A DNA stretch of 64,000 nucleotides from a virus, in IMG/VR virus record IMGVR_UViG_3300046821_000134, positions 16,153 through 80,152 of that record, one strand, 5' to 3'. Shown here piece after piece: positions 1,230-46,438 of the stretch. Numbering within the stretch: the first letter of the stretch is position 1; each line of letters opens with the position of its first letter. The notes beneath the pieces are model-generated. The model did not search any database and was not told the origin of the DNA. It was given only the letters and a program-made list of their open reading frames with translations. The position numbers and the translations under genes were made by a program.

Positions 1230-1830
1230 CAAACAGAAGAAACTTGCTGACAAGATTCTTGATAAATTGTTTCTTATTGACCCCTACTCAATTGTAGCAG
1301 GCGGGGCACCCCGTGATTGGCATTTTGGAGAGATGGCTACCGATATCGATGTGTTTTTCTGTGTTGGAAGAACCGCCACCCGCGGTACAGTAGAACAGAT
1401 GTTATCTTGCTTCCTCCCCGAGCCAGATAGTTTTGTAAGTGAGGATGATCTCCCGGTCTCGTACGAGAAAAACAGCGCGCTACGTTGCGTCAGGAGCTAT
1501 ACTGTTGAGGAAACAAGTGTTCAGTTGATTGAGCTGCACACCCCCTCTTTTGATATTGTTGGCACATTCCCAGTAAATATGTCTAAGGTTTGGTACAAAA
1601 ATGGAAGAATAACTCTTGAAAGAGATTTTATGATCGGAGAGAAAACAAAGCTCCTGTATCTTACAAATCCTTTGTATGCAAAGGCGGATAAGTATGTGAA
1701 GAAAATTACTGAGAAGTTTGTAGTAGGCAAGGGGTATAGCTGGTGTCAAACCAGAGAGTTTGCTGAAGAGCGCCTGATCAAAGAAGCGCTAGGCTATAAC
1801 ATTACTGGTAACGAAGGAGAAAACAAATGA
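1219..1830 (+). CDS. Putative nucleotidyltransferase (polymerase beta superfamily)
   Basis: A 203-residue protein. Residues 28-44 carry the catalytic signature of the polymerase-beta nucleotidyltransferase fold: GG at 28-29, PRD at 31-33 and the metal-binding pair DID at 42-44. This resembles the head domain of CCA-adding enzymes, but the protein is much shorter and lacks the usual body and tail domains, so it is a minimal NTase. Substrate unknown; RNA end-modification and nucleotidylation of a host protein are both possible. It lies in the coupled early operon and overlaps both neighbours. Confidence 0.7.
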   Translation: MSVNKQKKLADKILDKLFLIDPYSIVAGGAPRDWHFGEMATDIDVFFCVGRTATRGTVEQMLSCFLPEPDSFVSEDDLPVSYEKNSALRCVRSYTVEETSVQLIELHTPSFDIVGTFPVNMSKVWYKNGRITLERDFMIGEKTKLLYLTNPLYAKADKYVKKITEKFVVGKGYSWCQTREFAEERLIKEALGYNITGNEGENK

Positions 1831-2204
1831 ATGAAACACTGCAAAAAACGCTTGCCGTAATGATTGAGAAGGCCATCTCTGGGATTGACACAGCCACAAA
1901 TTTCCTTGCTGCTGAGATTCCTGATGTGATTCATCAGTTGTTGATGTGGAATCTGACATATAGTTTTTTAAAAGCATCCCTCTGTTTTGCGATTGTTGTC
2001 GCTATTGTGTATTTTGCCTACCATGGCGAGAAGAAACTACACGCCGAGGGGGATCATGTATCAAAAGGATATCCTACATTTGTTGCAGCAGTTCTTATTG
2101 CAGGGCCTTTTTGTGGGTTGTGTTCTTCAGTTACAGAAGCATTGAAGATTTGGATTGCCCCTAAAGTGTGGTTGATTGAATATGCAGTAGAGTTGGTGAA
2201 GTGA
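1827..2204 (+). CDS. Small membrane protein
   Basis: A 125-residue protein with two hydrophobic segments: about residues 48-68 (CFAIVVAIVYFAY core) and about 85-102 (FVAAVLIAGPF core). The N-terminus is amphipathic. It starts with an ATGA overlap on the nucleotidyltransferase gene and has AAGGAG upstream. It probably sits in the host inner membrane. No homologous family is recognisable; early phage membrane proteins of this size often act on the host, but that is inference. Confidence 0.65.
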   Translation: MNETLQKTLAVMIEKAISGIDTATNFLAAEIPDVIHQLLMWNLTYSFLKASLCFAIVVAIVYFAYHGEKKLHAEGDHVSKGYPTFVAAVLIAGPFCGLCSSVTEALKIWIAPKVWLIEYAVELVK

Positions 2205-3110: not shown

Positions 3111-5215
3111 TGGAAGGCTACGTGTTCGATCTAGAGGGGGACAATCTGTACTTGGGTTGTAAGAAGATTTGGTATGGGAATTTCAAATCATTAGACGGCA
3201 CACGTTCCCTTTCAGTTCATCCGTTCCAAGAAGGAAACGAAGAAGCACAAGGTAAGATTTTGGAGTGGATTCATAGCTTCTCTGACAAAGCCTTGTGTTG
3301 CTCCTTTAATGGTTTATCTTACGACCACTTTGTCTTGTGGAGACTTCTGGGCCTTAAACCAACTGTTGGTAAAGGTGGTAAGGATTATTTTGCAGATAAA
3401 GAAGTTATATTTTTTGATGCTTTCTACAATGCTCAGTTTCTTAATCCGAACTTGCCAGAGTTCTCTCTTGCTGCGTTGTCGCGTGGATCAAGTGCAGAGA
3501 AGATTGATTATCGTGAAAGGCTTGTTCAAGCAGGAGCAATGATTGGAAATGAGGTCAAGGGTTTCGAATTTTCTTTCTACAATCCTTTAATGGATGAATA
3601 CTGCGACGCAGACGTTGAAGCAACACGCGTACTTGTTTTGAAACAACTTGCTGAGCTTAAAGAGTTATATGGGGATGTTCGCCCCCCATCGCTGAGAATG
3701 GGTACAAAAGCCCAATTCCTCATGAAAGCCCAAGAACACACAGGGCACGGCTTTGATGAAAAATTGGCAGCAGAGGTAATGATCAGTTTGAACAAGGACA
3801 TGGAAGAACTTGAGTCAGAGGTTCTCCCTAAGCTTCCGCCACGCCCTTTGAAGAAAGGGGAGGAAGCAGAGTACTCAATGCCCGCAAAACCTTACAAGAA
3901 GGATGGGTCTTTTAGTAGTCATATGGAGAACTTCATTTCCAAGCACTCCGGTGTGGTTAAGTCTAAAGACACTGTTGAGTTCTTCGGTAAGGACTATAAG
4001 GTTGAGGCAAAGAAGATTTTAGATATAAAGCTTCCAATGGTTATTGGGGATCAACAGCATTTCAAAGAGTGGCTTCTCAGTCAAGGGTGGGTGCCTACTT
4101 TCTATAATTTTCAACGTGGCCCAGATGGTAAGCCTGTTAGGGACGACAAAGGTAACTACATCGAAACATCTCCGAAGTTGCAGGAACAAGGGGTGATCTG
4201 CCCAAATCTTCTTGAATTAGAGGGCGACGTAGTTAAGGAGGTTGTTAAGTTTTTATCTTTAAGGAATCGCAGGTCTGTGCTGCAAGGTTGGTTGGATAAT
4301 CCCCGTCTAAAATACGATGGAAGACTGCCAACAGCTTCCTCAAAAATTGCCAACTCTCACAGGCAATGTCACGCAGTGGTTTGTAATGTTCCTCGTGCTG
4401 GGGGTCAGAGTCTGTATGGGGACGAGTTTAGGAGCCTGTTTTGTGCAGAGGGAGAGAACCTTATCGCTGCTGCTGATGCAAGTGGGCTAGAGCAGCGTGT
4501 TGCTGGACACATGACTTTTAAGTATGATGAAGGCAAGTACGCGGAGGAGTTGCTGAAAGGGGATGTACACTCCAAGGTTGCATTTGCAATGTTTGAAAGA
4601 GAACTGGCTGCCTTAGGGTTCTCCCCAGACAAGTTTGACAAAGAGGACAGAAGATTTAAGCCATTTAGAAGCAAAGCTAAAACAGCAGGATATGCTATAC
4701 TGTATGGTTGTTCCCCAGCAAAGCTAGCCAAAACCCTCAACAAACCAGATAAGGACGGAAAACGCCTGCACAAAGCATTCTGGGACGCAAATCCCGCAAT
4801 GGCGCAGTTGGTTGAGAATATTGGAAAGTATTGGGAAACAAAAGGTAAAAAGACATTTGTGCCTGCTGTGGACGGTAGGTTGCTGAGAACTCGTTCAAAG
4901 CATTCTCTTTTAAATAATATCCTACAGAGTTTGGGGGCAATCGTAATGGACTTAGCTTGTTGTTTCATGGATGCAAAACTTGGTGAAATGTTTATTGATG
5001 AACTTGGGAGACCATATTACCTGTACAAAGGCAAACAGGTCAGGCGTGTCGTCTACTATCACGACGAGTATTCTTTTGAGTGTGCCCCAGAGGTAGCGGA
5101 GGAAGTGAAGAAAATGGCAGAAAACAGCATTGCTGAAGCTGGAAGATTCTTTAAACTAAACGTAGAGTTGGCTGGAGAGGGGAAGGTGGGTAAATCATGG
5201 CAAGCGGTGCATTGA
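3110..5215 (+). CDS. DNA polymerase, family A, with 3'-5' exonuclease (T7 gp5-like)
   Basis: The replicative polymerase: 701 residues, nearly the length of T7 gp5 (704). The N-terminal proofreading domain shows ExoI (FDLEGD near residue 6), ExoII (FNGLSYD) and ExoIII (YCDADVEAT). Palm motif A is DASGLEQR with catalytic Asp456. Motif B is R520-x3-K524-x3-Y528-x3-Y532-G533, the T7 spacing. Motif C is HDE with Asp652. A Tyr at 528, in the position corresponding to T7 Tyr526, predicts poor discrimination against dideoxynucleotides (family knowledge). It starts on the last base of the endonuclease stop. I see no frameshift or insertion. Confidence 0.97.
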   Translation: MEGYVFDLEGDNLYLGCKKIWYGNFKSLDGTRSLSVHPFQEGNEEAQGKILEWIHSFSDKALCCSFNGLSYDHFVLWRLLGLKPTVGKGGKDYFADKEVIFFDAFYNAQFLNPNLPEFSLAALSRGSSAEKIDYRERLVQAGAMIGNEVKGFEFSFYNPLMDEYCDADVEATRVLVLKQLAELKELYGDVRPPSLRMGTKAQFLMKAQEHTGHGFDEKLAAEVMISLNKDMEELESEVLPKLPPRPLKKGEEAEYSMPAKPYKKDGSFSSHMENFISKHSGVVKSKDTVEFFGKDYKVEAKKILDIKLPMVIGDQQHFKEWLLSQGWVPTFYNFQRGPDGKPVRDDKGNYIETSPKLQEQGVICPNLLELEGDVVKEVVKFLSLRNRRSVLQGWLDNPRLKYDGRLPTASSKIANSHRQCHAVVCNVPRAGGQSLYGDEFRSLFCAEGENLIAAADASGLEQRVAGHMTFKYDEGKYAEELLKGDVHSKVAFAMFERELAALGFSPDKFDKEDRRFKPFRSKAKTAGYAILYGCSPAKLAKTLNKPDKDGKRLHKAFWDANPAMAQLVENIGKYWETKGKKTFVPAVDGRLLRTRSKHSLLNNILQSLGAIVMDLACCFMDAKLGEMFIDELGRPYYLYKGKQVRRVVYYHDEYSFECAPEVAEEVKKMAENSIAEAGRFFKLNVELAGEGKVGKSWQAVH

Positions 5216-15478: not shown

Positions 15479-18400
15479 TACTCATACCCCCAAGCCGGTT
15501 TACCCGGTATATATTTAGTTCCGCCCGGCCCGTAAGAATAGCCGTACCCTTTTGCAATCCAATCAAATGTGCGCTGTACAGGTGTCCCAGAAGAATTCTT
15601 GAATATAATTGTAAACCCATTCAAGTCTTTATCCAGCACTTCGTAATAGTCACCCGTGCTCATATTCTGCGCAATAATTGCCACAGCAGGCTGCCTATAG
15701 AAACTACGAGCATACTCAATGACTGCAGTTCCTGTTAGGGAGTTAGTGACAATATCCTCACTCCCCTCGACCCTGTTTCTTCCCTCGACAACGATAGACA
15801 GAGAAGAAACTACTGGAGTTACTCCAGCCCTTAGGCTTTTCAACACAATCTTGAACTCAGCGTACTGAAGAGTGGCCTCCGTAGAAGACAAAGGAATCCA
15901 CTCAGACCAAGGGTCTTCTGTTTTATTCCGCCACCTATAATATACAATGGCGCTCCAATCAGCCGCTACCGCCCCGCCTATGTTAGCCACGTCGGACAGG
16001 TTGTCCCATTTTCCAATGTAGTTTAGGAAGTTTGACCCCTCTGCAACCATGTTGGCAGTAAGTCGCACAGTGTTTGTCTCGGTAAGCCCTAGAGGGGTTA
16101 GATAATAAGTGCCCTCTGATAACTCCCCTATGCCTATGTTCAAAGGGACGGCATCTGCCAACGGCGTCCAATCTGCCATAACCCCGGCTGCAATGAACAG
16201 CGTACCTCCGCCTACATTAACATGGTCCTTCGCACCAGAGTAGTATGGGTGCTCAGGAACAGCTCTTATTAGTGAATAATCATCTGATCCGTCTAGACTG
16301 TTAATTATCGCTGTGGCATTAACTGACTCAAGACCTGCTTTAGATACAGCCTTAATAAGATACGTCCCTCTACGGCACGTCAGATTAATGTGGTTGGTTG
16401 GATATGCAATCTTGTCAGCAACGACAACAGCACTTCCCCAATCAACACTGCTTGACTCTGTGGTTGAGTGCTTGATTACAAAGTGACTGATATTCTTACT
16501 TGATGTGACGTTAGGCACTTCCCATGAGAAATACGCAGAGGCTCCTTGAATGCTAATCAAGAAGTTACTCACGTCAGGAGGAATGCCCGGATTACCAGTT
16601 ATCGTTGCTGTAGCATAAGCCTTGTTGCTGTATATTCCATACTGGCTTACATGCTGCACACTCACTTCAATATCGCCAACCTTCGCTAGATGAATATCCT
16701 TGAATGCATCCGTAAATGATCCAGCATCCTGCCATTGCTCTCCAGCATACCTCCACCACAGCACAGAGTGACTGAATGAAGAAAACGTAGGGCGTGTGAA
16801 GCTCACAAGGGCTGTGTAGCGAATGTTTCCAAGCTCGTCTAGGTAGGACGCATCCGTTACAACAAGTCTCGCCGGAGAGGGTGTATACCACCTGTAAGGG
16901 GTGGAGATAGGGCGCTCAATAAATGCAGCATCTTCGTCTACAGCAGCGTACTTGGACTCATTATATTCAAGCCCTGTAATCTCGTACTGATTCACTTCCT
17001 TCTCAGAGATGGACACAACACGGAACAACTGAGATTGAATCGTATTCGATTCCAGCATCCACATTGCCATTCTGGCAGGAGCTTGGCTGAGTGCTGTAAC
17101 AAGATTAATGACAGTGAATGTGCTGCTAAGAACGTATGCACCAATGACATCACCAGAGGAGTCAACAATGGCCAAGTATTGTAGCCCCACATCTTTTTCC
17201 CCATCGCCTATTGCATTTAGTACAGGGGTGGATGTGAAGATAACTTCCCTCGTCTCCATCGTCCCGTTAGGCAGCAGAACACTGAGTGTGTAGGTGTCTC
17301 CAATATTCACTTCAATCGCACTATCAATTGTGACAGAGCTTGTTGTAGCAGACAGAATACGCCCGCCCCAACGCTTCCCTACACGATTTGAATCATGCAC
17401 CTTGATAACACTGCCCGGAACCAATCCACTACCAGCCCCTTCAAGCCCTGTCGTGAAAGACACAAGCTCTGTGAGAGCACATGACGACAAAAGGATGTTC
17501 CTGCCAAAGCGTACGGCTTGTCCTCTTGACGAGCACCCAACAGCTATAGCAGATGTTTGCTTCACACCATACTTGACAATGTAGTCGGGCAGAGTGACGT
17601 ACTCTGTCTTCTCTGTGAAGCGATCTTCTGCATCCACGTAAGTGATTAAGGCTGTTGTGTAACGCGTGTTCTTGCTTGATCCCTGATAGATGAATTCCCC
17701 ATCAACAACGTTAGCGTTTGTGAATATCCAAGCAGGATCATCAGGCATGTCTGCTGAAATAGCCAGAGCGCCATTCACCCAGTAAATCATCCCGTTGAAG
17801 ATGGAAGCCATATCAGACAGCACTTTGTACGCGTCTTCTTTCCCTTGCATGTACAGCGAGCACGTATAGCGAGGCTCAAATCCACCATATCCATTTGGAA
17901 CAGGCTCATCACAATACTGAGCAATGCGGTAGAAGGAAACTAAATCAACTTGCTCAATTGGAACGTACTTACCAAGCCCGTATCGGGCGTTAGTGATTAG
18001 ATCAAGCAAACACCACACAGGGTTATCCGTGTAAGAGGTCTTGAACGTATCAAAGTCCCACGTTCCACTGTAGATTCTTGACACTGCATCGTAGTTGACA
18101 GGGACCTTTACAATCCGCCCCTTAACATCGTATGCTCGCGCAGGAATCCCGTCGTACTGAGAGGAATCCACTGACATTGCAATATAGGCTGAATACGGAT
18201 AGGACAGCTTCTGGTCAATAATCTCGGTGAATGTCTCCCACTGGATGTCGTTCTGGAGATATGTAGTTGTGCTGTCGTCTGTAATACGCCTAACCCTAAC
18301 CTCATACTGCCCCGGCCCACTCAAAGGGAGAACGTATTCACGTACATACTTGCTTGTACATTTTCCGTAGATACGATCTGTCAAGCTGTTGTCCCACATC

Positions 18401-30267: not shown

Positions 30268-31278
30268 TTACGCCGTAGTGCACTTCACAACCATCGCCGG
30301 ACGGCACAAGGCATTCAGGAAATTAGACTCAGATTCCAGAATGATCTTGTCGTCACGCTCACCTTGATACTCAAACGCGTAAGCAGGTTCTCCGGTTGTG
30401 CCCGCCAGCGAGAACTTGTTCGCACTTGCAAAATAAGTCTTGAAGGCATCGGTGCCAACCGGAACCATGACGGCTTCGTTAGCCGGAATGAAAGCGTTAC
30501 CTGCATAGTTGCCGCGAACTTCTACAAACAGAACGCCTGCATGGAAGAACTCGCGGTACATCGTGGTGTTGCCACCAAGACGCTGACGCAGGGGTTCTTG
30601 CGTGCTGGTATAATATGTATAAGCGGTTTTAACGTTAGCGTGAGAAATCAAGCTGAAGAAGAAGCCGCTGGAACAGTAGCAAACAATGCCTGATACATTT
30701 TGACCAGAGGCGTTATCTTGAATGTGGGCAATACCCTCTTCCACCTTGGATACAATGTCTGTGGTGTTCGTTCCGAAAGTAAAATTAACACTCTTCTGCG
30801 ATACACCAAACTCGGTGAAGTAGTTCATCGAGACGGTACCATTCGGAGCATACACATCACCAGAAGTCAGAGCTTTCCAGCGTGCATGTTCCAGCGTCCA
30901 CGCATGATTCTGACGAATGCGAGCAAGGCGACGAGCACGAACGAGAGCGAGCTGCTCTTCATCCGATGCCGTACCATATGCGCGCTTACCCTTGATGTCG
31001 CTAGGTGTAATGTAATCGTCATACGGAAAATGCGGTACACTCCACGCACGAATCAAGGAACCTTGCTCCTTGTTCGCATCGGCACGCTCTCCGCGCACCT
31101 TGTCTACAATGATAGCGCCATCTTTAGTGGTCTGTTCAAACTGAACGGTGTAAGTTTCAATACCTTCTTCTTGGAAGAGGCCATCAGCAGCCAAACGTCC
31201 CCATTGATTCGGGACAAGAACAAGCTCCTCCGTCCAATCAGAAACCTCGAAATTCTTGCCAAAAGTACGAGTCAACAT
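30268..31278 (-). CDS. Major capsid protein, lambda E-like
   Basis: A 336-residue protein (lambda E is 341). The N-terminus LTRTFGKNF and the segment HFPYDDYITPSDIKGKRAYG fit the phage capsid protein E family with the HK97 fold. No N-terminal delta domain is visible; the separate scaffold gene upstream fits that. It follows the decoration gene as in lambda. Confidence 0.93.
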   Translation of the reverse strand: MLTRTFGKNFEVSDWTEELVLVPNQWGRLAADGLFQEEGIETYTVQFEQTTKDGAIIVDKVRGERADANKEQGSLIRAWSVPHFPYDDYITPSDIKGKRAYGTASDEEQLALVRARRLARIRQNHAWTLEHARWKALTSGDVYAPNGTVSMNYFTEFGVSQKSVNFTFGTNTTDIVSKVEEGIAHIQDNASGQNVSGIVCYCSSGFFFSLISHANVKTAYTYYTSTQEPLRQRLGGNTTMYREFFHAGVLFVEVRGNYAGNAFIPANEAVMVPVGTDAFKTYFASANKFSLAGTTGEPAYAFEYQGERDDKIILESESNFLNALCRPAMVVKCTTA

Positions 31279-34775: not shown

Positions 34776-37310
34776 TTAAGACGGGATAGGCCCTTCTCTT
34801 GTTAAAGAGATGCCTGAGAGGGATACGTTAGGAGAGGATTGATACGCTTTAGCGAGAATCTTCAAGGCGCTTGATGTAGCATCAACCTCGTCATCGTGAA
34901 TCTTTCGCATAGACTCAGGGGTGCCTTTGAACATCTCAAGCGTTTCAAGCCACTCATCATTCCATGCCCCGACCACGATCTTCACTTTACCTGCTTCTGC
35001 AAGCTGGCAGAATGGGAGGAACCTTTGTAGCTTACCGCTCCAGCCACTCATCTTATCAACTTTGACGATAAGCCCTTCCTCAGAGAGAACTGTTACCATG
35101 TGGTTTGCCACGTATTTACCTGCTGCACCAGCGTCCTGTGGTACAACAATAGGAACGTGTAACCCATCTCTAGTTGCCTGAGTGATGATGCGCTCAAGCA
35201 CTGCATGAGGCTTCGCATGGAACTTGACCATATCAATCACGTAATACGTCCCAAACCTGTCACGCCCCATTAGCATTCCAACCGTGGCATCAGGATTACG
35301 ATTAACCTCAGACTTCTCTGTTGCTGCCAAGTCGTAGGCTCTAACAAGGTCGGTATCCACCGGTACCTGATCCATTGTTATCAGATCGCACCAAGACCGG
35401 TTAAACATGTTCTGTCCAACATCGATATTAAGCCATGAGCCATGCAGGTATTTCAGTTGGTTGCGCTTAGGCTGTGCAAGGAGGCTTGGAAGGTAGGTGT
35501 TGTTGCGTGGAGGGAGTAGGTAGGGGTTGTCGTAGACCGTAGAAGGGATAAATCTGAATGACTTAGCAATAAAGAGCTTACCTTTTGGCACGTCGCGTAT
35601 CTGTGCTGCAGTAAGCCCCTTCCCTCTAATCATGCCGCGTGGGGCGCCATGAATCTCAAAACACTCCTCTTCTGAGTCTGCCCACAAAACCTTGCCATCA
35701 AGAACAACCATCCAGCGAACCTTGTCTTCTGTTCCCGGCTTTGGCACGCCATCTTCGTCTAGGCAGTAATCTACCCACTCCCTTAGAAAGCTATTATGAT
35801 TTGGGTTAGCTGTTAGGATAACTTGTTCTTTGTATTTTGAGTGGGCACTACGAACCCGAGACAACAAGAATAAAATTACATCCAAAGACCAATCATCGCC
35901 GGCTTCGTCCACGCATAAACGGCTAGCTTGGAGGCCCTGGAGGCTACCAAGCACACTTGCATCTGGGATACCAAGGAACTGTATCTCGGCCTGAGATGGG
36001 AACGTCCAGATCAGTCCAGTCTTATTAAAGTCACCGCCAAAAGGTTGGTAGAATTGTTTAGATTCATTCACAATGCCACCGGGGCGTGTAAGCTCAGGTC
36101 TTGATTTACGCGCAATCACGATGCGCTCATTTGGATCATCCAAGTATGCCAACATCTTCATCAAAATTGTTGACGTATTGTGTGTCACAATGTAGTTTGT
36201 TGTAATATACAGCTTTTCGTCTCCTGATATACTAATACAAGACGCTTCTCCTTTTCCTATTGGCTCTATGCACTCAACGCGTAACCCCACGTGTTTGGAT
36301 ATTGTTCTGTCTTTTTTCGCAGGAAGTCTGAAAAGACTCCCTTGGTTCATTCCCCTCACATACAGTTTATAAACAATGGAGCAAATATGCTTTACACCAT
36401 CTTTGACGTAACTTCCCTGCTTGGTGGAGAGCTTTGCAGTGTACCCAAGTGAGTGAAGGATTTCCTTAACCTGATGAGCCATTCGTTCGGAGGTTGTGTC
36501 ATAATATACGTTACCTCTTTTACATACATAGCCGTCTGTATCAAACAACCCCTGTAGTAAGTCAAAACGATTCTTGATAGAGCCTAACATATATTCTTCA
36601 GGAATGAATTTGGTCTGAGAAAGGGTTCCTCTCAGGCCAAGGCGTTCCATTTCAGAAAATGTGCCAAGAAGAGTTTTTGTAACAGATGTTGGTCTGCCCT
36701 CATTAAGAGTAAAGGCGCCGGGAGTAATCCCTTCCCGCTTTAGTTCTTCCCACACAAATTCACTACTGTTAGTTACAGCCGGGCTTCCTGTTTTTGGTAT
36801 ATGGCCGTCACCTAGTATAACCCCCATCGCATAAGGGGAGATAACGTGTTCTTTGTGTTCGGAATGTTGTACTGGCTTTATAAGAGGTATGATCGGAAGT
36901 CTTTTACGAATTCCTTTTGTCCCTTCGTATTTAGAGGTTACTTTCAACATTTCAAGCGTATTTGTAATCTTACTGTTAACTTGCCCGTCACCTGCCTCAT
37001 GCCATTTCCATAGATGTTCTCCACAACAGTCTATGATTCTTCCATCTTGAAAACGAACACGGTATAAGTCAACAACCCCCTGAGGAAATACGCCGGTAAC
37101 AGTCTCAACCGTGTTATCAGGAGTAATTACTTTGTCGCCAACCTTAATATCTTCAATATTTACGAACCCGTTTACAGTTAAAACTTTCTCTCCATGTCGA
37201 AGAGCTTTCCCGCCGCCAGCACCACCACCCACAAGGATAATGTCTTCTTGTGCTTCTAGCATCATTCTTTGCTTTACTGACGCCGGGCCGAACACCTTAT
37301 TCTCAGCCAT
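34776..37310 (-). CDS. Terminase large subunit with in-frame intein
   Basis: An 844-residue precursor. The ATG at 37310 overlaps the upstream TGA; a GTG one codon earlier is also possible. The terminase ATPase begins with an adenine-binding Q motif (SVKQRMML) and Walker A GGGAGGGK, which is broken after the Lys (residue 35) by a 343-residue intein (36-378). The extein resumes with TSTILMKM, restoring GKT. Walker B-like VDEAGDD and the C-terminal nuclease acidic residues (DLAATEKS, HDDEVDA) follow. The spliced protein would be 501 residues, a normal length. It pumps DNA into the prohead. Confidence 0.95.
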   Translation of the reverse strand: MAENKVFGPASVKQRMMLEAQEDIILVGGGAGGGKALRHGEKVLTVNGFVNIEDIKVGDKVITPDNTVETVTGVFPQGVVDLYRVRFQDGRIIDCCGEHLWKWHEAGDGQVNSKITNTLEMLKVTSKYEGTKGIRKRLPIIPLIKPVQHSEHKEHVISPYAMGVILGDGHIPKTGSPAVTNSSEFVWEELKREGITPGAFTLNEGRPTSVTKTLLGTFSEMERLGLRGTLSQTKFIPEEYMLGSIKNRFDLLQGLFDTDGYVCKRGNVYYDTTSERMAHQVKEILHSLGYTAKLSTKQGSYVKDGVKHICSIVYKLYVRGMNQGSLFRLPAKKDRTISKHVGLRVECIEPIGKGEASCISISGDEKLYITTNYIVTHNTSTILMKMLAYLDDPNERIVIARKSRPELTRPGGIVNESKQFYQPFGGDFNKTGLIWTFPSQAEIQFLGIPDASVLGSLQGLQASRLCVDEAGDDWSLDVILFLLSRVRSAHSKYKEQVILTANPNHNSFLREWVDYCLDEDGVPKPGTEDKVRWMVVLDGKVLWADSEEECFEIHGAPRGMIRGKGLTAAQIRDVPKGKLFIAKSFRFIPSTVYDNPYLLPPRNNTYLPSLLAQPKRNQLKYLHGSWLNIDVGQNMFNRSWCDLITMDQVPVDTDLVRAYDLAATEKSEVNRNPDATVGMLMGRDRFGTYYVIDMVKFHAKPHAVLERIITQATRDGLHVPIVVPQDAGAAGKYVANHMVTVLSEEGLIVKVDKMSGWSGKLQRFLPFCQLAEAGKVKIVVGAWNDEWLETLEMFKGTPESMRKIHDDEVDATSSALKILAKAYQSSPNVSLSGISLTREGPIPS
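36177..37205 (-). mobile_element. LAGLIDADG intein in the terminase P-loop, class 3 type
   Basis: This 343-residue element starts with Ala (no Cys1/Ser1) and ends THN before Thr+1. The Hint blocks are visible: block B with His64 and Trp66 (EHLW), and block F with Cys323 (ASCISIS). Trp in block B, Cys at F:4 and Thr+1 form the W-C-T signature of class 3 inteins, which splice through the internal Cys. Two LAGLIDADG motifs (AMGVILGDGHI; LLQGLFDTDGY) mark the homing endonuclease. Splicing is inferred from the intact signature. Confidence 0.92.
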
Positions 37311-37546
37311 CACCCTTCCTCCAAATCAAACTTAAAATACATCCCCTTATTGCTACTATTCACAGCAATGATGGGCAACTTCCTCGCATTGGCAATCAAT
37401 GCCAATAGCTCAATAAATTCCTTAGAACTCTTCCCCACAACATCTACGCAATCCAATGAGAGAGAATCTAGCTCGCCGTCCTCATCAAGATAGGCCCAAC
37501 GCAGGGAGTATTTCCCACGATAAGAAACTACACGAATGTTCTTCAC
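37310..37546 (-). CDS. Small hypothetical protein upstream of terminase
   Basis: A 78-residue protein starting at a GTG with AAAGGAAATGTAA upstream, just behind the terminator of the structured RNA locus. Its TGA overlaps the terminase ATG, so the two are translationally coupled. Beta-rich N-terminus (RVVSYRGKYSLRW), helical middle. Function unknown. Confidence 0.65.
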   Translation of the reverse strand: MKNIRVVSYRGKYSLRWAYLDEDGELDSLSLDCVDVVGKSSKEFIELLALIANARKLPIIAVNSSNKGMYFKFDLEEG

Positions 37547-37570: not shown

Positions 37571-37607
37571 GAACAAAAATAACGCCCAAAGGATTTCTCC
37601 TTGGGCG
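37571..37607 (-). terminator. Intrinsic terminator ending the structured RNA
   Basis: On the - strand CGCCCAA-GGA, a short loop, TCC-TTTGGGCG (stem bases 37583-37607, one bulge), then TTATTTTTGTT. A T-rich tail is present only on the - strand, which gives the orientation of the RNA. Confidence 0.88.
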
Positions 37608-38142
37608 CATTGAAACACTATATCGGAAAGGATAAGTGAGAGGAGAAACTTAGAGATTATCTGTCCCAACGCATCTCACGCCGGGAGGGTGTTTGCTTCA
37701 ACACCTAAGCTCCACTGTAAGCAACAGCAGAGGAATACGCGTAACTCTTTAGGAGAAGGGTTTTACGCATTGGTTGTGGGTGACCGACTCGTCAGCGGGG
37801 TGCTTCCCCAGACAGGCGTATAGTCGATTAGCTCAGTCTCGCATACACGCAGTGCGAAACATAGTTACAGCGTCCTGTAACGATCCTCTTTTACCCACAA
37901 GGAAGTAGTCTATCCGAGGATGTCTTAACACTTGTGGGCTAGGACTTCCTGTTCTGACTGCTTCCTTGTAGGTGCTGGTTACTAATCCAGCGATAGGCTT
38001 TCGGGCTACCAGCTCCACTGTCCCGCCTGTGTCTTATTACGCATTTCAGGTCTTTGCGTACAACATCCCCGGAGGTCAAAGGAGGTAACAAATCCCTCCG
38101 GGGAACACATCACAATGTGTCTTTTCTCATCTCTCACTGTAT
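37571..38142 (-). ncRNA. Candidate large structured non-coding RNA, about 565 nt
   Basis: Transcribed leftward from the perfect promoter at 38149-38177 to the terminator at 37571-37607. No coding ORF with a ribosome binding site lies inside. The ends pair over about 480 nt: 38131-38138 plus 38123-38128 with 37635-37648, 14 bp with one 2-nt bulge. Internal perfect stems include 38067-38075/38095-38103 (9 bp), 38105-38110/38115-38120, 38038-38043/38055-38060, 37894-37901/37931-37938 (8 bp), 37864-37870/37875-37881 (7 bp), 37836-37843/37853-37860 (8 bp with one GU) and 37687-37704. A pseudoknot 37916-37921/37883-37888 is possible. Size and phage setting resemble the giant ornate RNAs ROOL and GOLLD; the class is unconfirmed. 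It is not tmRNA, RNase P or a tRNA. Confidence 0.8.
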
Positions 38143-38148
38143 ATAGAC

Positions 38149-38177
38149 ATTATATACCCGGGATGTGTCTTTGTCAA
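38149..38177 (-). promoter_or_regulatory. Perfect-consensus sigma70 promoter of the structured RNA
   Basis: Reading leftward: TTGACA (38177-38172), 17-bp spacer, TATAAT (38154-38149). It begins 8 bp after the stop of the upstream gene. The start of transcription is expected near 38142, i.e. at the 5' edge of the closing helix. Confidence 0.9.
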
Positions 38178-38185
38178 GCTATTTA

Positions 38186-38587
38186 TTAAACATTTTTCAG
38201 ATGGTCAATGTCCAACACACCATCTCCTGTGGTAGCATCTTCTCCGTCAATGTTTTGAATAACACTTGGAGAGAATGTTACACGAGGCTTCCCATCTTCC
38301 TCTTCTGGAGTTATTGTCTTCATGCCAATACGGACAAGCTGTTTCTCTTGCAGTTCTGCTCTGACATTGGCAATACTAGCTGCAAGGTTATTCTTTGCAC
38401 TCCTATCAATATTCTCTGACTGCAACGTAAGCACCTTAGTAATCAAATCAGCCTTTATCTTGATATCAGCCTCAGGGTCTTGCAGGATTGCAATAGCAGC
38501 ATTATAGGCCATCTTGGAGAGCTTATCAAGGTTCTTGATCAGCTTTTTCTGCTCTGCTGTGATGGCTTTTGCGTCAATTTCCTTCAT
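38186..38587 (-). CDS. Putative terminase small subunit
   Basis: A 133-residue, mostly helical protein with a Lys-rich N-terminal helical pair (about 1-90) and an acidic C-terminal tail (PEEEDGKP, DGEDATTGDG). Position between lysis genes and the large terminase, and the size, suit a small terminase. No recognisable DNA-binding helix-turn-helix is seen, so the call is by context only. It overlaps the Rz gene by 14 nt. Confidence 0.5.
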   Translation of the reverse strand: MKEIDAKAITAEQKKLIKNLDKLSKMAYNAAIAILQDPEADIKIKADLITKVLTLQSENIDRSAKNNLAASIANVRAELQEKQLVRIGMKTITPEEEDGKPRVTFSPSVIQNIDGEDATTGDGVLDIDHLKNV

Positions 38588-40144: not shown

Positions 40145-41755
40145 TTACACAAGAGGTATTAGCTCCTGACACAATGTTGATAAATGATTCTGAAGAAGAA
40201 TAACATCGTAGTTTTTATCAGTGTCCATTGCACAGTAGGTGGTCATTCTACCTCCTGTAGCAGCAGTGCCTGATTGGATGAAATCTGTTGGGGTGTATGA
40301 AGCCATAACCCTGTTCTGCACATCGTACCTGAATATCTGGTTCAATGCCCCAGATGCGTATATGTTGATGTAGAACATACGCCCTTCATTATCGTTTGGC
40401 GCAAGGCTTCCACAAGAACCTGTCGTGAGTGCTACAGAGCCGTCGTAGACAATCGCACTTGTCCAAGTACCAGTGATAGACCCCGCTATATCAAATACGT
40501 CAATACTGGCAGACGATCCCCGGAAGAAGTGCTGGAAGGAGTGTCGTGAGTTTCTATCAACATCCGGCTGTATTGCATAAGAACTTGCCCACATACCACC
40601 CACGGCGTTAGCTGCACCAGCAGCTGCAAAGTAGGTGGTGCTCCACGAGTTTGCAGGGATGTTGTTTGTCCCGTTGTTGATCGTAGCGTCCATGTAGTTG
40701 TAGGTGTAAACGGTAGTAGTGCCGCTTGTTCTCAACAGTATCAGATTAGGAAGCTCAATAACATATTTAGCAGAGGATGATGGTGTGGTTGTCCATGCAG
40801 TGCCAAGTGTATAGACAGGGCTTGGGCCTGCAGTATGGCTCGCAATCACCCTACGTTGTCCTACAGCAGCCGGTGTAACAGTGTCCTGAACAATTCGTAT
40901 CTGGAAGTTACGATACTCATTTGCAGCTACAACAGCATCCCCGAGGGTGGCCTGCCCTGTGAGAGTACTTGCTGCTGCTGCGGTAGCAACTAAAGCATAG
41001 CGGCTAACATGCCCTGCGTCATACAGGAAAGCCCCCTTAATCATGCCCTCACCGGGCTTCATGTTGTACGGGGTGTATTGCTCATCAAGAACAAGCACTG
41101 CAGAGTCTGTTGCAACAGTTGCCGGGAGTCCTGTTGTGCTAAGGCCCGTGGAAAGAAAGTTGCTGGCAATCTCCAAAGAGCGCCATATGTTAGCTGCAGT
41201 GGTTCCAGCCCCAAGCATAAACACTCTACCAGCTACAATCTCATACCTTGCACCAGTGGCAGGGGTAAACGAGAAAGGGGAATGAATACGAATAGCAGGG
41301 GTTGTTCCTCCTGTGTTACCTGTAATGTATCTCTCTTCTGTTTTACCTGCAACAGTGTCAATGATTCTGATTTTAAAGCCGTAATCACCTGACCCACCAC
41401 GATTGGCAAGCATATTCACACCAACTGCGGCAGGAAGGGCTGTGGTGAGTGTCACCTTGTCCGTTGTAGCCCCTGCTGCGATTGTACCAACAAGTCCAAA
41501 TGATGGCACAAAATCCATTGCTGCTCCAGCGCCAAAGGTTCCAGCAAGAGCGGGAGATTGCACATAGTTCCAGCTCTTTGTTACGATGTTAAAACGATTC
41601 AGCACTGTTGCAGACACAAGCTGATACACCAGAGGGTGCCTCGAGATGTCTGAACGTTCATCAGAGCATAAACACATCCCTGCAGCATGTGCGTTGGGGG
41701 CAGGGGCTACTTGAACCCATTCGTTTCTGTCCAAGCATTTTTTAAACAAATTCAA
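40145..41755 (-). CDS. Putative virion/fibre protein
   Basis: A 536-residue, beta-rich, Ala/Gly/Thr-rich protein. It starts at a TTG with a good AGAGGAGAGTAACC ribosome binding site located inside the end of the upstream endonuclease gene. Repeated short strands (NLILLRTSGTTTVYTY, WSTTYFAAAGA) suggest a beta-propeller or repeat fibre. The neighbours are small structural proteins. No enzyme motif seen. The C-terminus carries a short helical tail. Role in adsorption or head decoration is inferred. Confidence 0.7.
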   Translation of the reverse strand: MNLFKKCLDRNEWVQVAPAPNAHAAGMCLCSDERSDISRHPLVYQLVSATVLNRFNIVTKSWNYVQSPALAGTFGAGAAMDFVPSFGLVGTIAAGATTDKVTLTTALPAAVGVNMLANRGGSGDYGFKIRIIDTVAGKTEERYITGNTGGTTPAIRIHSPFSFTPATGARYEIVAGRVFMLGAGTTAANIWRSLEIASNFLSTGLSTTGLPATVATDSAVLVLDEQYTPYNMKPGEGMIKGAFLYDAGHVSRYALVATAAAASTLTGQATLGDAVVAANEYRNFQIRIVQDTVTPAAVGQRRVIASHTAGPSPVYTLGTAWTTTPSSSAKYVIELPNLILLRTSGTTTVYTYNYMDATINNGTNNIPANSWSTTYFAAAGAANAVGGMWASSYAIQPDVDRNSRHSFQHFFRGSSASIDVFDIAGSITGTWTSAIVYDGSVALTTGSCGSLAPNDNEGRMFYINIYASGALNQIFRYDVQNRVMASYTPTDFIQSGTAATGGRMTTYCAMDTDKNYDVILLQNHLSTLCQELIPLV

Positions 41756-42455
41756 GGTTACTCTCCTCTAACTTTTCAATGCGTTCAAAAACGTATCCAT
41801 GAATGGATTTATCAGCCTTTCTGAATGCATAATATATACTCATCAGGTTTATGTTGAGGCTAATTGCCGCGTGTTTTACAGATTCGTAGAGCGTATTGTT
41901 TGTCAAACAAAGAACCTTGCATGTCGACCGGTTAGCTGCCATCTTGGATTTACTCTCGTCGGAGTGTTTTTTACCTCTGTTCGCATCCCCTATCCTGCGC
42001 TTGTGTTCCTCAGACAACTTTACCCCTGTGTGTACCTCGCTCAACTTCTTTCTGGTTTCATCGCTGGCCTTTTTGCCTAAGTTTGCTTGCCTAAGCCGCT
42101 CTCGTGTCTCGTCGGAGATAACCCGCTCCTTAACGGCCTTACTTATTTTAGCTTTCGCCTCTTCACTCATTGAAACGCCAAGCCTGCTGCCCGCTACGCT
42201 ACAAATATTATACTCAGGTTTTAGTGTGTCTATATAGAATTGCTCAACTCTTATGAGGTCTTCCTCTTGCACATATTCCAAAACATTAAATACAAAATTT
42301 TCTATGCCGTATTTTCTCATGGCACACTGCATGTGAGGGTTACTTCTCCTCCCGCTAAAGTGATTAGCCATACGTGTTTTTAAATCCTTAGAACTTCCGA
42401 CATATCTCTTATTGTTGATTAGGTTCACAATCTCGTAAACTCCACAATTTCCCAT
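41742..42455 (-). CDS. GIY-YIG homing endonuclease with NUMOD3 repeats
   Basis: A 237-residue protein. The N-terminal GIY-YIG domain shows VYEIVN, RYVGSS and the Arg helix (about 6-35), then YGIENFVFNVLEYV and the catalytic Glu region (VEQFYI). The middle holds four NUMOD3-type repeats (SEEAKAKISKA, SDETRERLRQA, SDETRKKLSEV, SEEHKRRIGDA), and the C-terminus a helix-turn-helix-like segment (about 185-215). It overlaps both neighbours by 1 and 14 nt, showing a precise insertion in the fibre operon. Confidence 0.92.
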   Translation of the reverse strand: MGNCGVYEIVNLINNKRYVGSSKDLKTRMANHFSGRRSNPHMQCAMRKYGIENFVFNVLEYVQEEDLIRVEQFYIDTLKPEYNICSVAGSRLGVSMSEEAKAKISKAVKERVISDETRERLRQANLGKKASDETRKKLSEVHTGVKLSEEHKRRIGDANRGKKHSDESKSKMAANRSTCKVLCLTNNTLYESVKHAAISLNINLMSIYYAFRKADKSIHGYVFERIEKLEESNLEFV

Positions 42456-45136: not shown

Positions 45137-46438
45137 TTGATTAAAGATTTGTTGGCTATGGAGGAGGGTGAAAGACAAGATGTGTCTATGTCTACAACCC
45201 ACTTCAATCTGCACTACCACAAAGCAAGAGCGTATACGCACATACACAGCACTCTCTCTTCTTTGTCTGCAGGATGTAATGAATTATGGTGTTTGATAAC
45301 TAACACAGCCCGAGCGTTGAAGTACGGAGCTAAGGGTATGAAGATACCAAGACACTTCAGCCCATACAAAGGCAATCCTCGCCAGCTTAGTCATAAAAGA
45401 ATGGTGTTGCTTTTAGATAAGATGGTGGAGAATGGATACCTTGTCTTCTATCGTGGTGGGCTGTTGAAGATGAGTGAAGAACAAAGGCTTCTCTCTATCT
45501 ACATGTTCACGGATAAATACCTATCGCTCTGGCAAGACGTGGACGTAAGCAAAGAAAAGAATGAATATAACTTCATTCAGGTGAGGGATAGACTTACACA
45601 GGAGCACAAGACCACAAAAGGTATTAAAGGTGCAGAGCAGATGCGTATGTTTATGGAGCAGTACAACACGCTGCTTGAGAACACCAGTCTAGCTGTGGAT
45701 GGTAAAGCACTCCCTATTCAACAATACGCAAGAATCTTCACGGACAGTGTTGACAAAGGGGGTCGCTACTACAACACAACAGGCGGGATTCAAGTTGTGC
45801 CAAGCCGATTACGGAGCTACGTGGAGATCAACAAGGAGAGAGTGGTTGAGCTTGACTTCTGCGCGCTTCATCCTAACATTTTGTATGAACGTGTTGAAAG
45901 AGAAACAGGGATTGTGGTTGATATTGATGACCCTTACAGTGTTGACATCTCGTCGCTGTTCGCTGAAGACAGTACCATCTGTACAGGAAAACATAACCCG
46001 GCCAGAGTGCTCGTCAAACAAGTGTTCCTAAAAGGGCTTAACGCCAAGGATATACGCAGCGCAGCAGGCTCTGTTACAGAGAGTTGGTACGAGGAGTACA
46101 AGAAAGGAAAAGACGGAGCATTCTATGGCCTGTCTCCGCAGGGGACATCAGGCACGTTTCCTGCTAAAGCATTGTGCGAACTTGTTGCTAATGCACACCC
46201 ATTAATCAAAGATGCTTTCTTTTCTGACTGTGGGCTATTGCTTCAAAGGATAGATAGTGATATAATAACACTTGTGTTGAAAAACTTTATGGACATCGGT
46301 GTGTGTGCATTAAGCTGGCACGACAGCGTAGTTGTTCCAGCGAAGTATAAAGAAATGTTACACGCACAGATGGTGTTGGCCTACACAACCGTTATTGGAA
46401 GTGGTGGTAGGTGCAAGATTGATACGAAGGAGAGCTAA
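45137..46438 (+). CDS. Putative replication protein with winged helix and polymerase-palm-like motifs
   Basis: A 433-residue protein, TTG start with AAGGAGAGGGAA upstream. The N-terminal half has a winged-helix-like unit (about 84-108, LSHKRMVLLLDKMVENG). The C-terminal half has KGGRYY near 208, VELDFCALHPNILY (Asp240), a helix R290-x3-K294 ending LNA, and LSWHDS (Asp396). This order matches motifs A, B and C of family A / T7 RNA polymerase-type palms, but fingers and length are reduced. It is paralogous to 53445-54671. A replication initiator, primer synthase or small polymerase is inferred, not shown. Confidence 0.7.
   Translation: MIKDLLAMEEGERQDVSMSTTHFNLHYHKARAYTHIHSTLSSLSAGCNELWCLITNTARALKYGAKGMKIPRHFSPYKGNPRQLSHKRMVLLLDKMVENGYLVFYRGGLLKMSEEQRLLSIYMFTDKYLSLWQDVDVSKEKNEYNFIQVRDRLTQEHKTTKGIKGAEQMRMFMEQYNTLLENTSLAVDGKALPIQQYARIFTDSVDKGGRYYNTTGGIQVVPSRLRSYVEINKERVVELDFCALHPNILYERVERETGIVVDIDDPYSVDISSLFAEDSTICTGKHNPARVLVKQVFLKGLNAKDIRSAAGSVTESWYEEYKKGKDGAFYGLSPQGTSGTFPAKALCELVANAHPLIKDAFFSDCGLLLQRIDSDIITLVLKNFMDIGVCALSWHDSVVVPAKYKEMLHAQMVLAYTTVIGSGGRCKIDTKES

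Follow-up and report, generated by a model that had tools for sequence, protein, structure and literature searches.

What is encoded by a long gene-free stretch that sits between two late genes of a phage, probably a freshwater one, and what might its product do? The stretch lies in a window of 64,000 nt (the whole piece of DNA that was analysed), which covers positions 16,153 to 80,152 of IMG/VR record IMGVR_UViG_3300046821_000134. An earlier note on this DNA had proposed that an independent, heavily folded non-coding RNA is made here, had likened it to the large phage RNAs GOLLD and ROOL, and had suggested a possible link to genome packaging because of its place between the terminase genes.

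The RNA gene and its predicted fold

The locus is made up of the following features, all on the minus strand.

34776..37313, minus strand: terminase large subunit gene (terL) with a LAGLIDADG intein (PHROG 979, Terminase_6C, LAGLIDADG_3)
37574..37608, minus strand: intrinsic terminator, a GC-rich hairpin GCGCCCAAGGAGAAATCCTTTGGGCGT followed by the T-tract TATTTTTG
37575..38142, minus strand: non-coding RNA gene of ~565 nt, recognised by promoter and terminator, fold, and homologous RNAs in the equivalent position of relatives
37635..37648, minus strand: 3' strand of the closing helix described in the earlier note, found in the minimum-energy fold
38123..38138 (38131-38138 plus 38123-38128), minus strand: 5' strand of that closing helix, found in the minimum-energy fold
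38149..38177, minus strand: sigma-70 promoter TTGACA-N17-TATAAT, matching the consensus at 12/12 positions
38186..38587, minus strand: 133-aa gene, candidate terminase small subunit, with the same gene at the same place in four related loci (L011, L013, L014 and L015)

The RNA gene was taken to run from its predicted start to the end of the T-tract. Its two signals, the perfect leftward promoter at 38177-38149(-) and the stem and T-tract at 37608-37574(-), are as the earlier note had read them, and they enclose a non-coding stretch, as predicted for a stand-alone transcript with intrinsic termination. The longest open reading frame in the stretch has 61 codons' worth of protein (61 aa), the fetched loci contain no convincing relative of any frame, and tblastn returned weak matches only (E >= 0.18), so we rejected a protein-coding reading; a conserved frame had been named beforehand as a finding that would count against the RNA. 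Promoters of the TTGAC[A/T] type also stand 124-260 nt upstream of the conserved core described below in L011, L013, L014, L015, L093 and L094, and by inspection these six loci and L200 have a terminator-like hairpin before the next gene. A discrete transcript, which the host RNA polymerase would make, is strongly suggested as a prediction for the window and its close group. A second perfect TTGACA-N17-TATAAT was observed at 34728-34700(-), directly upstream of the portal gene. The region around the promoter (38120-38193(-)) has a weak DNA similarity of 74% (E about 2) to phages LC739533 and OR584014, which represent two groups of 150-kb phages; this is probably the shared consensus promoter only.

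The neighbouring genes were also examined. The downstream gene is terL beyond doubt, and the upstream gene itself matched no family convincingly; its homologue in L013 gave a weak match to a terminase small subunit family (PHROG 641, E = 0.007), and because this is what supports the label, the statement that the RNA lies between terminase genes is established on one side and plausible, not proven, on the other. The terL gene of the window has its intein near the Walker A codons, and L014 has a group I intron (4202-4526) at nearly the same place; in L200 both an intron-like insert and an intein apparently occur there, and L093 is also listed among such cases. Among the genes upstream of the RNA, a GIY-YIG homing endonuclease with a NUMOD3 motif is encoded at 41742-42455(-).

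The stretch 37571-38148(-) is predicted to fold at -210 kcal/mol, compared with -166.8 +/- 5.7 kcal/mol for dinucleotide shuffles (z = -7.6), and 0 of 100 shuffles folded as well. Two relatives gave comparable signals (z = -5.0 in L200 and -4.6 in L094), and outside the close group the folds barely beat their shuffles, with z values of -1.9 in L011 and, for the short stretches taken from Curvibacter phage P26059A and L070, -0.9 and -1.4. The earlier note had treated the closing helix between the two ends as key evidence. The minimum-energy fold reproduces this helix exactly, at a pair probability of about 0.95, and as a predicted pairing it stands. However, a 5'-3' end duplex of equal or greater strength formed in 166 of 1000 shuffles and the relatives have no counterpart of it, so the closing helix is neither exceptional nor conserved.

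Comparison with known RNA families

An Rfam covariance search and a collection of homologous phages had been put forward as checks on the RNA, and both have now been carried out. Against Rfam 15, the whole window gave nothing at the gathering thresholds, and the locus gave only three sub-threshold chance matches at E <= 5. Neither the GOLLD model (RF02032) nor the ROOL model (RF03087) matched the window record or six relatives at E <= 10, the controls for ROOL were equally silent, so that the ROOL search by itself is weak evidence, and full Rfam scans found neither family. The OLE RNA model did not match, group I and group II intron, tmRNA, RNase P and tRNA models had no match in the window, and the Rfam phage packaging RNA had none at E <= 5. 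GOLLD, ROOL, OLE, introns and tmRNA were accordingly rejected by their Rfam models as the identity of the RNA.

The likeness to GOLLD and ROOL holds for the setting of an RNA that itself falls outside Rfam. GOLLD is a large ornate RNA of phages and prophages found near tRNA islands, sometimes with tRNAs inside it; it has lake-derived members, and assembly into a homo-oligomeric nanocage is among its hallmarks. The relatives of the window share this association with tRNA islands, whereas the window record itself lacks tRNAs, and GOLLD is often longer than 800 nt, compared with ~565 nt here. ROOL resembles the window RNA in size (659 nt for env-120), in its phage setting near tRNA islands and in having no established function, but its covariance model does not match. 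In PAK_P3, a member of a related phage group, two abundant late RNAs (sRNA1 and sRNA2) come from adjacent intergenic regions, and one of the two is flanked by tRNAs (PMC4933390). These are about 100 nt long, however, and our model of the conserved core had no match in two Nankokuvirus regions (L201 and L203) or in Felixounavirus regions.

Relatives and a covarying core

Relatives were found via the major capsid protein (30268-31278), which gave 80 IMG/VR loci; single-query searches of IMG/VR with the window TerL or the TerS-like gene gave no relatives, and DNA similarity to cultured phages consisted of chance-level matches or none. At the same position upstream of terL, capsid-related phages encode an RNA comparable to that of the window, driven by a promoter and often with tRNAs inside. 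In L011, L013, L014 and L015, a homologue of the upstream gene is followed by a sigma-70-type promoter, 0.6-1.1 kb of gene-free DNA and a terminator-like hairpin, after which comes terL or a small gene preceding it. Further relatives are L093, L094 and, from another metagenome, L200. The parts of the RNA that we compared are listed below in 5' to 3' order of the transcript.

38067..38103, minus strand: hairpin P1, a 9-bp stem with a 19-nt loop that contains ACCTCCTTTG (anti-Shine-Dalgarno-like); pair probability about 1
38078..38085, minus strand: candidate anti-Shine-Dalgarno (anti-SD) mimic CCTCCTTT in the P1 loop, recognised by sequence
38039..38059, minus strand: hairpin Z (ACGCA...TGCGT), from the fold; by inspection, relatives have hairpins in the matching position
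37974..38016, minus strand: AB core, AGCT plus hairpin A (37992-38010, C-GAAA-G loop) abutting hairpin B (37974-37991, loop ATTAGTAA)
37956..37971, minus strand: helix C, 5' strand CTACAAGGAAGCAGTC; pair probability about 1
37895..37910, minus strand: helix C, 3' strand GACTACTTCCTTGTGG; pair probability about 1
37736..37771, minus strand: hairpin M, stem ATGCGTAA and loop CCCTTCTCC, with a conserved loop and compensated stem in relatives

The core of 44 nt, in which the two hairpins abut, recurs in about 17 phage contigs. When 4.56 Mb were scanned on both strands with a descriptor of this core, the window was matched only inside the RNA, and the matches elsewhere were the family loci, L011, P26059A, L139 and two weak sites that are probably chance; a Markov control gave 10 raw matches in 11.4 Mb. 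A covariance model built from seven relatives with the window left out (R1) matched the window at 37974-38016(-) with 40.2 bits (E = 2.9e-9), and the runner-up scored 9.6 bits. Because three of the seven seeds (L011, P26059A and L139) had been chosen by a descriptor that was itself based on the window and its close group, this test is leave-one-out for sequence and not fully blind. R1 also recovered L200 and L015, and more weakly L164, L016 (overlapping record L115), L148, L070 and L071, none of which had been used to build it; each of these matches precedes terL on the coding strand. A second model from 14 sequences (R2) scored the window core at 48.1 bits and added L083 and L019, with no further match in 1.17 Mb, and 0.82 Mb of unrelated or capsid-region control loci held nothing above 14 bits. 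The E-values of such home-made models are rough. A sequence-only profile of the relatives failed to find the window, and homology therefore rests on structure and synteny.

Most pairs of the core show compensatory changes. In the alignment of 14 sequences, which was fitted to the model and so favours pairing, 99.3% of cells are paired, with 41 two-sided changes compared with 10.8 in shuffled alignments and a covariation of 0.81 compared with 0.22; slid controls were all less than 50% paired. The other parts covary as well, in alignments that were cut by hand around recognised helices and whose counts therefore lean towards pairing: 97.6% of cells with 11 two-sided changes for P1 (present in six relatives) and 96.2% with 16 two-sided changes for helix C (seven sequences, entered as two joined strands). 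Hairpin M keeps its loop and a compensated stem in L013, L014, L015, L093 and L200, a modest level of support, and the loop motif common to window and relatives is CCUUCUCC. Sliding controls collapsed for P1, helix C and M alike. The P1 stem varies in sequence around a conserved loop, which reads GRAGUUUCC(CC)UCCUUUCGA in the relatives and GAUUUGUUACCUCCUUUGA in the window. The block order P1-A-B-C-M is identical in the window, L013, L014, L015, L093 and L200, and L094 has all blocks but M in the same order.

The window and its relatives thus hold a structured RNA family with ordered blocks, conserved loops and covarying stems, which, together with the fold and the conserved position, bears out the earlier proposal of a heavily folded independent RNA. 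This family is very probably new.

Several further observations concern individual parts. The helix C domain (ACAAG...CTTGTG) is seemingly duplicated in L093 (about 1960-2380), with L200 also listed. Several relatives have an upstream CUUGU and the 3' strand of helix C as competitors for the same ACAAG. At the 3' end of the RNA stretch, L013, L014, L015, L093, L094 and L200 share a conserved element, GAAGCCTGCGTGACAGGACAC, with a small hairpin and the terminator downstream of it; this element was found in only six IMG/VR contigs and not in the window. We had considered hairpin B as a mimic of the tRNA-Thr anticodon loop (UUUGUAA/UUAGUAA), an idea dropped because distant members keep GUAA alone.

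Possible roles in late genes, tRNA islands and translation

The chief rival to a trans-acting RNA is one that works in cis on the late operon or the tRNA island, where its hairpins would bind RNA polymerase or a phage protein for antitermination into terL, as in HK022 put, or where it would be a leader controlling translation of the next gene. It holds this rank because in P26059A and L070 about 40 nt, free of any terminator, separate the core from the next start codon, and because a promoter scan between the window terminator and terL, which the terminator precedes, found a single 9/12 match and no strong promoter. In nearly every contig the core also precedes terL on the coding strand, loops of the CUCCU type could pair with downstream ribosome-binding sites, and antitermination would naturally serve long untranslated islands. 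The put antitermination RNA of HK022 consists of two adjacent stem-loops near a promoter, and the likeness, which lies in the two adjacent stem-loops only, is a lead. Yet the window RNA has its own terminator, several hundred nt of structure in conserved order extend beyond A and B, and the second copy of P26059A is found in a different island. We regard a cis role as a real but improbable alternative.

We consider it unlikely that the RNA is an element of the tRNA island itself, that is, a scaffold, a processing signal or the remnant of a tRNA-like gene that organises or protects tRNA precursors, the tRNAs having been lost from the window. The core is nearly always upstream of terL or in a tRNA island, and tRNAs (Thr-TGT, Gly-TCC and Trp-CCA in several relatives) lie within the RNA stretch of L011, L013, L014 and L015, and by inspection of L093. 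In L139 about 10 nt separate the end of the core from a tRNA, and the second copy of the core in P26059A (45173-45217(-), E = 1e-6 in a whole-record search) occupies another gap of ~1 kb, with a tRNA-Arg 5 nt further on. Inspection also revealed tRNA-like elements in L014 (about 2270-2350), L013 (about 3305-3375), L015 (about 1480-1560) and L200 (near the RNA 3' end), each of which combines a T-arm with a covarying acceptor stem of 8 bp but has no normal anticodon arm; neither ARAGORN nor the Rfam tRNA model recognised them. The window record, however, contains no tRNA in all its 80,152 bases and no tRNA-like signal in the RNA at E <= 5, and L070 has no tRNA within 1.8 kb of the core, yet the core is well paired; decay would not preserve compensatory changes. 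Since the RNA is kept in a record without any tRNA, it is not just a tRNA leader. In L231, the second tRNA island of P26059A, ARAGORN reported a tRNA with anticodon CTA as Pyl (1794-1892(-)), which the Rfam tRNA model did not confirm.

The RNA lies between the candidate terS and terL, and this position is conserved. A role in packaging like that of phi29 pRNA, which the earlier note had suggested from the place between the terminase genes, is nevertheless very improbable, because the second core copy of P26059A lies in a tRNA island away from terL, ~38 kb from the first copy at 83499-83542(+) and on the other strand, the same position is a tRNA island in relatives, where the core can directly precede tRNAs, and the window TerL is an ordinary Terminase_6C protein. 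The pRNA is not known outside phi29-like phages, which have a different ATPase. That the RNA adjoins the terminase genes seems to reflect a shared synteny of the tRNA island, and the P26059A second copy and L139 indicate that the core module belongs to tRNA islands and late-gene leaders rather than to packaging as such.

Our preferred explanation, which we hold tentatively as something less than probable, is an undescribed family of large structured phage tRNA-island RNAs that lies upstream of the late operon and acts in trans, likeliest on translation. That the RNA is discrete and acts in trans is in itself somewhat probable. It would fold into a compact, stable molecule in which the A/B pair would serve as a structural or protein-binding core. 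The likeliest target would be translation, as the exposed CCUCCUUU loop appears to imitate the 3' end of 16S rRNA. The CCUCCUU of the P1 loop is identical to the anti-SD core in the 3' tail of 16S rRNA. In four lineages (the window with L013, L014, L015, L093, L094 and L200, as well as P26059A and L016) the corresponding CCTCCTT precedes the core by 65-145 nt, in a fifth (L139) it lies 207 nt downstream of the core, and shuffles of the same stretches hold it in 2-7% of cases. It was not found near the core in L011, L070, L148, L164 or L019. In the window and its close group the motif is placed in the loop of the strong hairpin P1, so that CCUCCU lies within a stem-loop, as ACCUCCUUUG in the window and CCUCCUUUC in the relatives. 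A scan of GTDB genomes with the P1-loop pattern gave 26 matches, about the number expected by chance, and R2 picked none of them convincingly.

A parallel for such a mimic is OLE RNA, which is about 600 nt long and has a CCUCCU anti-SD mimic needed for binding ribosomal protein bS21 (PMC12054373). GOLLD reportedly pulls down ribosomes (PMC12286853). OLE differs in being found mostly in Bacillota, and the mimic here is in a hairpin loop. By analogy, the P1 loop could capture bS21, 30S subunits or the Shine-Dalgarno sequences of mRNAs. A search for S21 genes in the window record and three relatives found none, so any bS21 target would be that of the host. We regard this anti-SD mechanism as possible and on the doubtful side. 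A bolder idea, likewise on the doubtful side, is that the A/B core is a widespread module, present in large ornate RNAs and before tRNAs and late genes, which together with the anti-SD hairpin redirects ribosomes or RNA polymerase late in infection.

If true, such redirection of ribosomes or RNA polymerase would be a function established for no phage RNA family of this kind. GOLLD and ROOL, which lie beside tRNA genes, have been without a known function since their discovery, and the window RNA very probably adds a further, independent family to them. Its compact covarying core of 44 nt and its testable anti-SD mimic offer a small, accessible handle on the role of such RNAs, and one member of the family is in a cultured phage, Curvibacter phage P26059A. 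The family may thereby link the question of large phage RNAs to the bS21 finding for OLE RNA.
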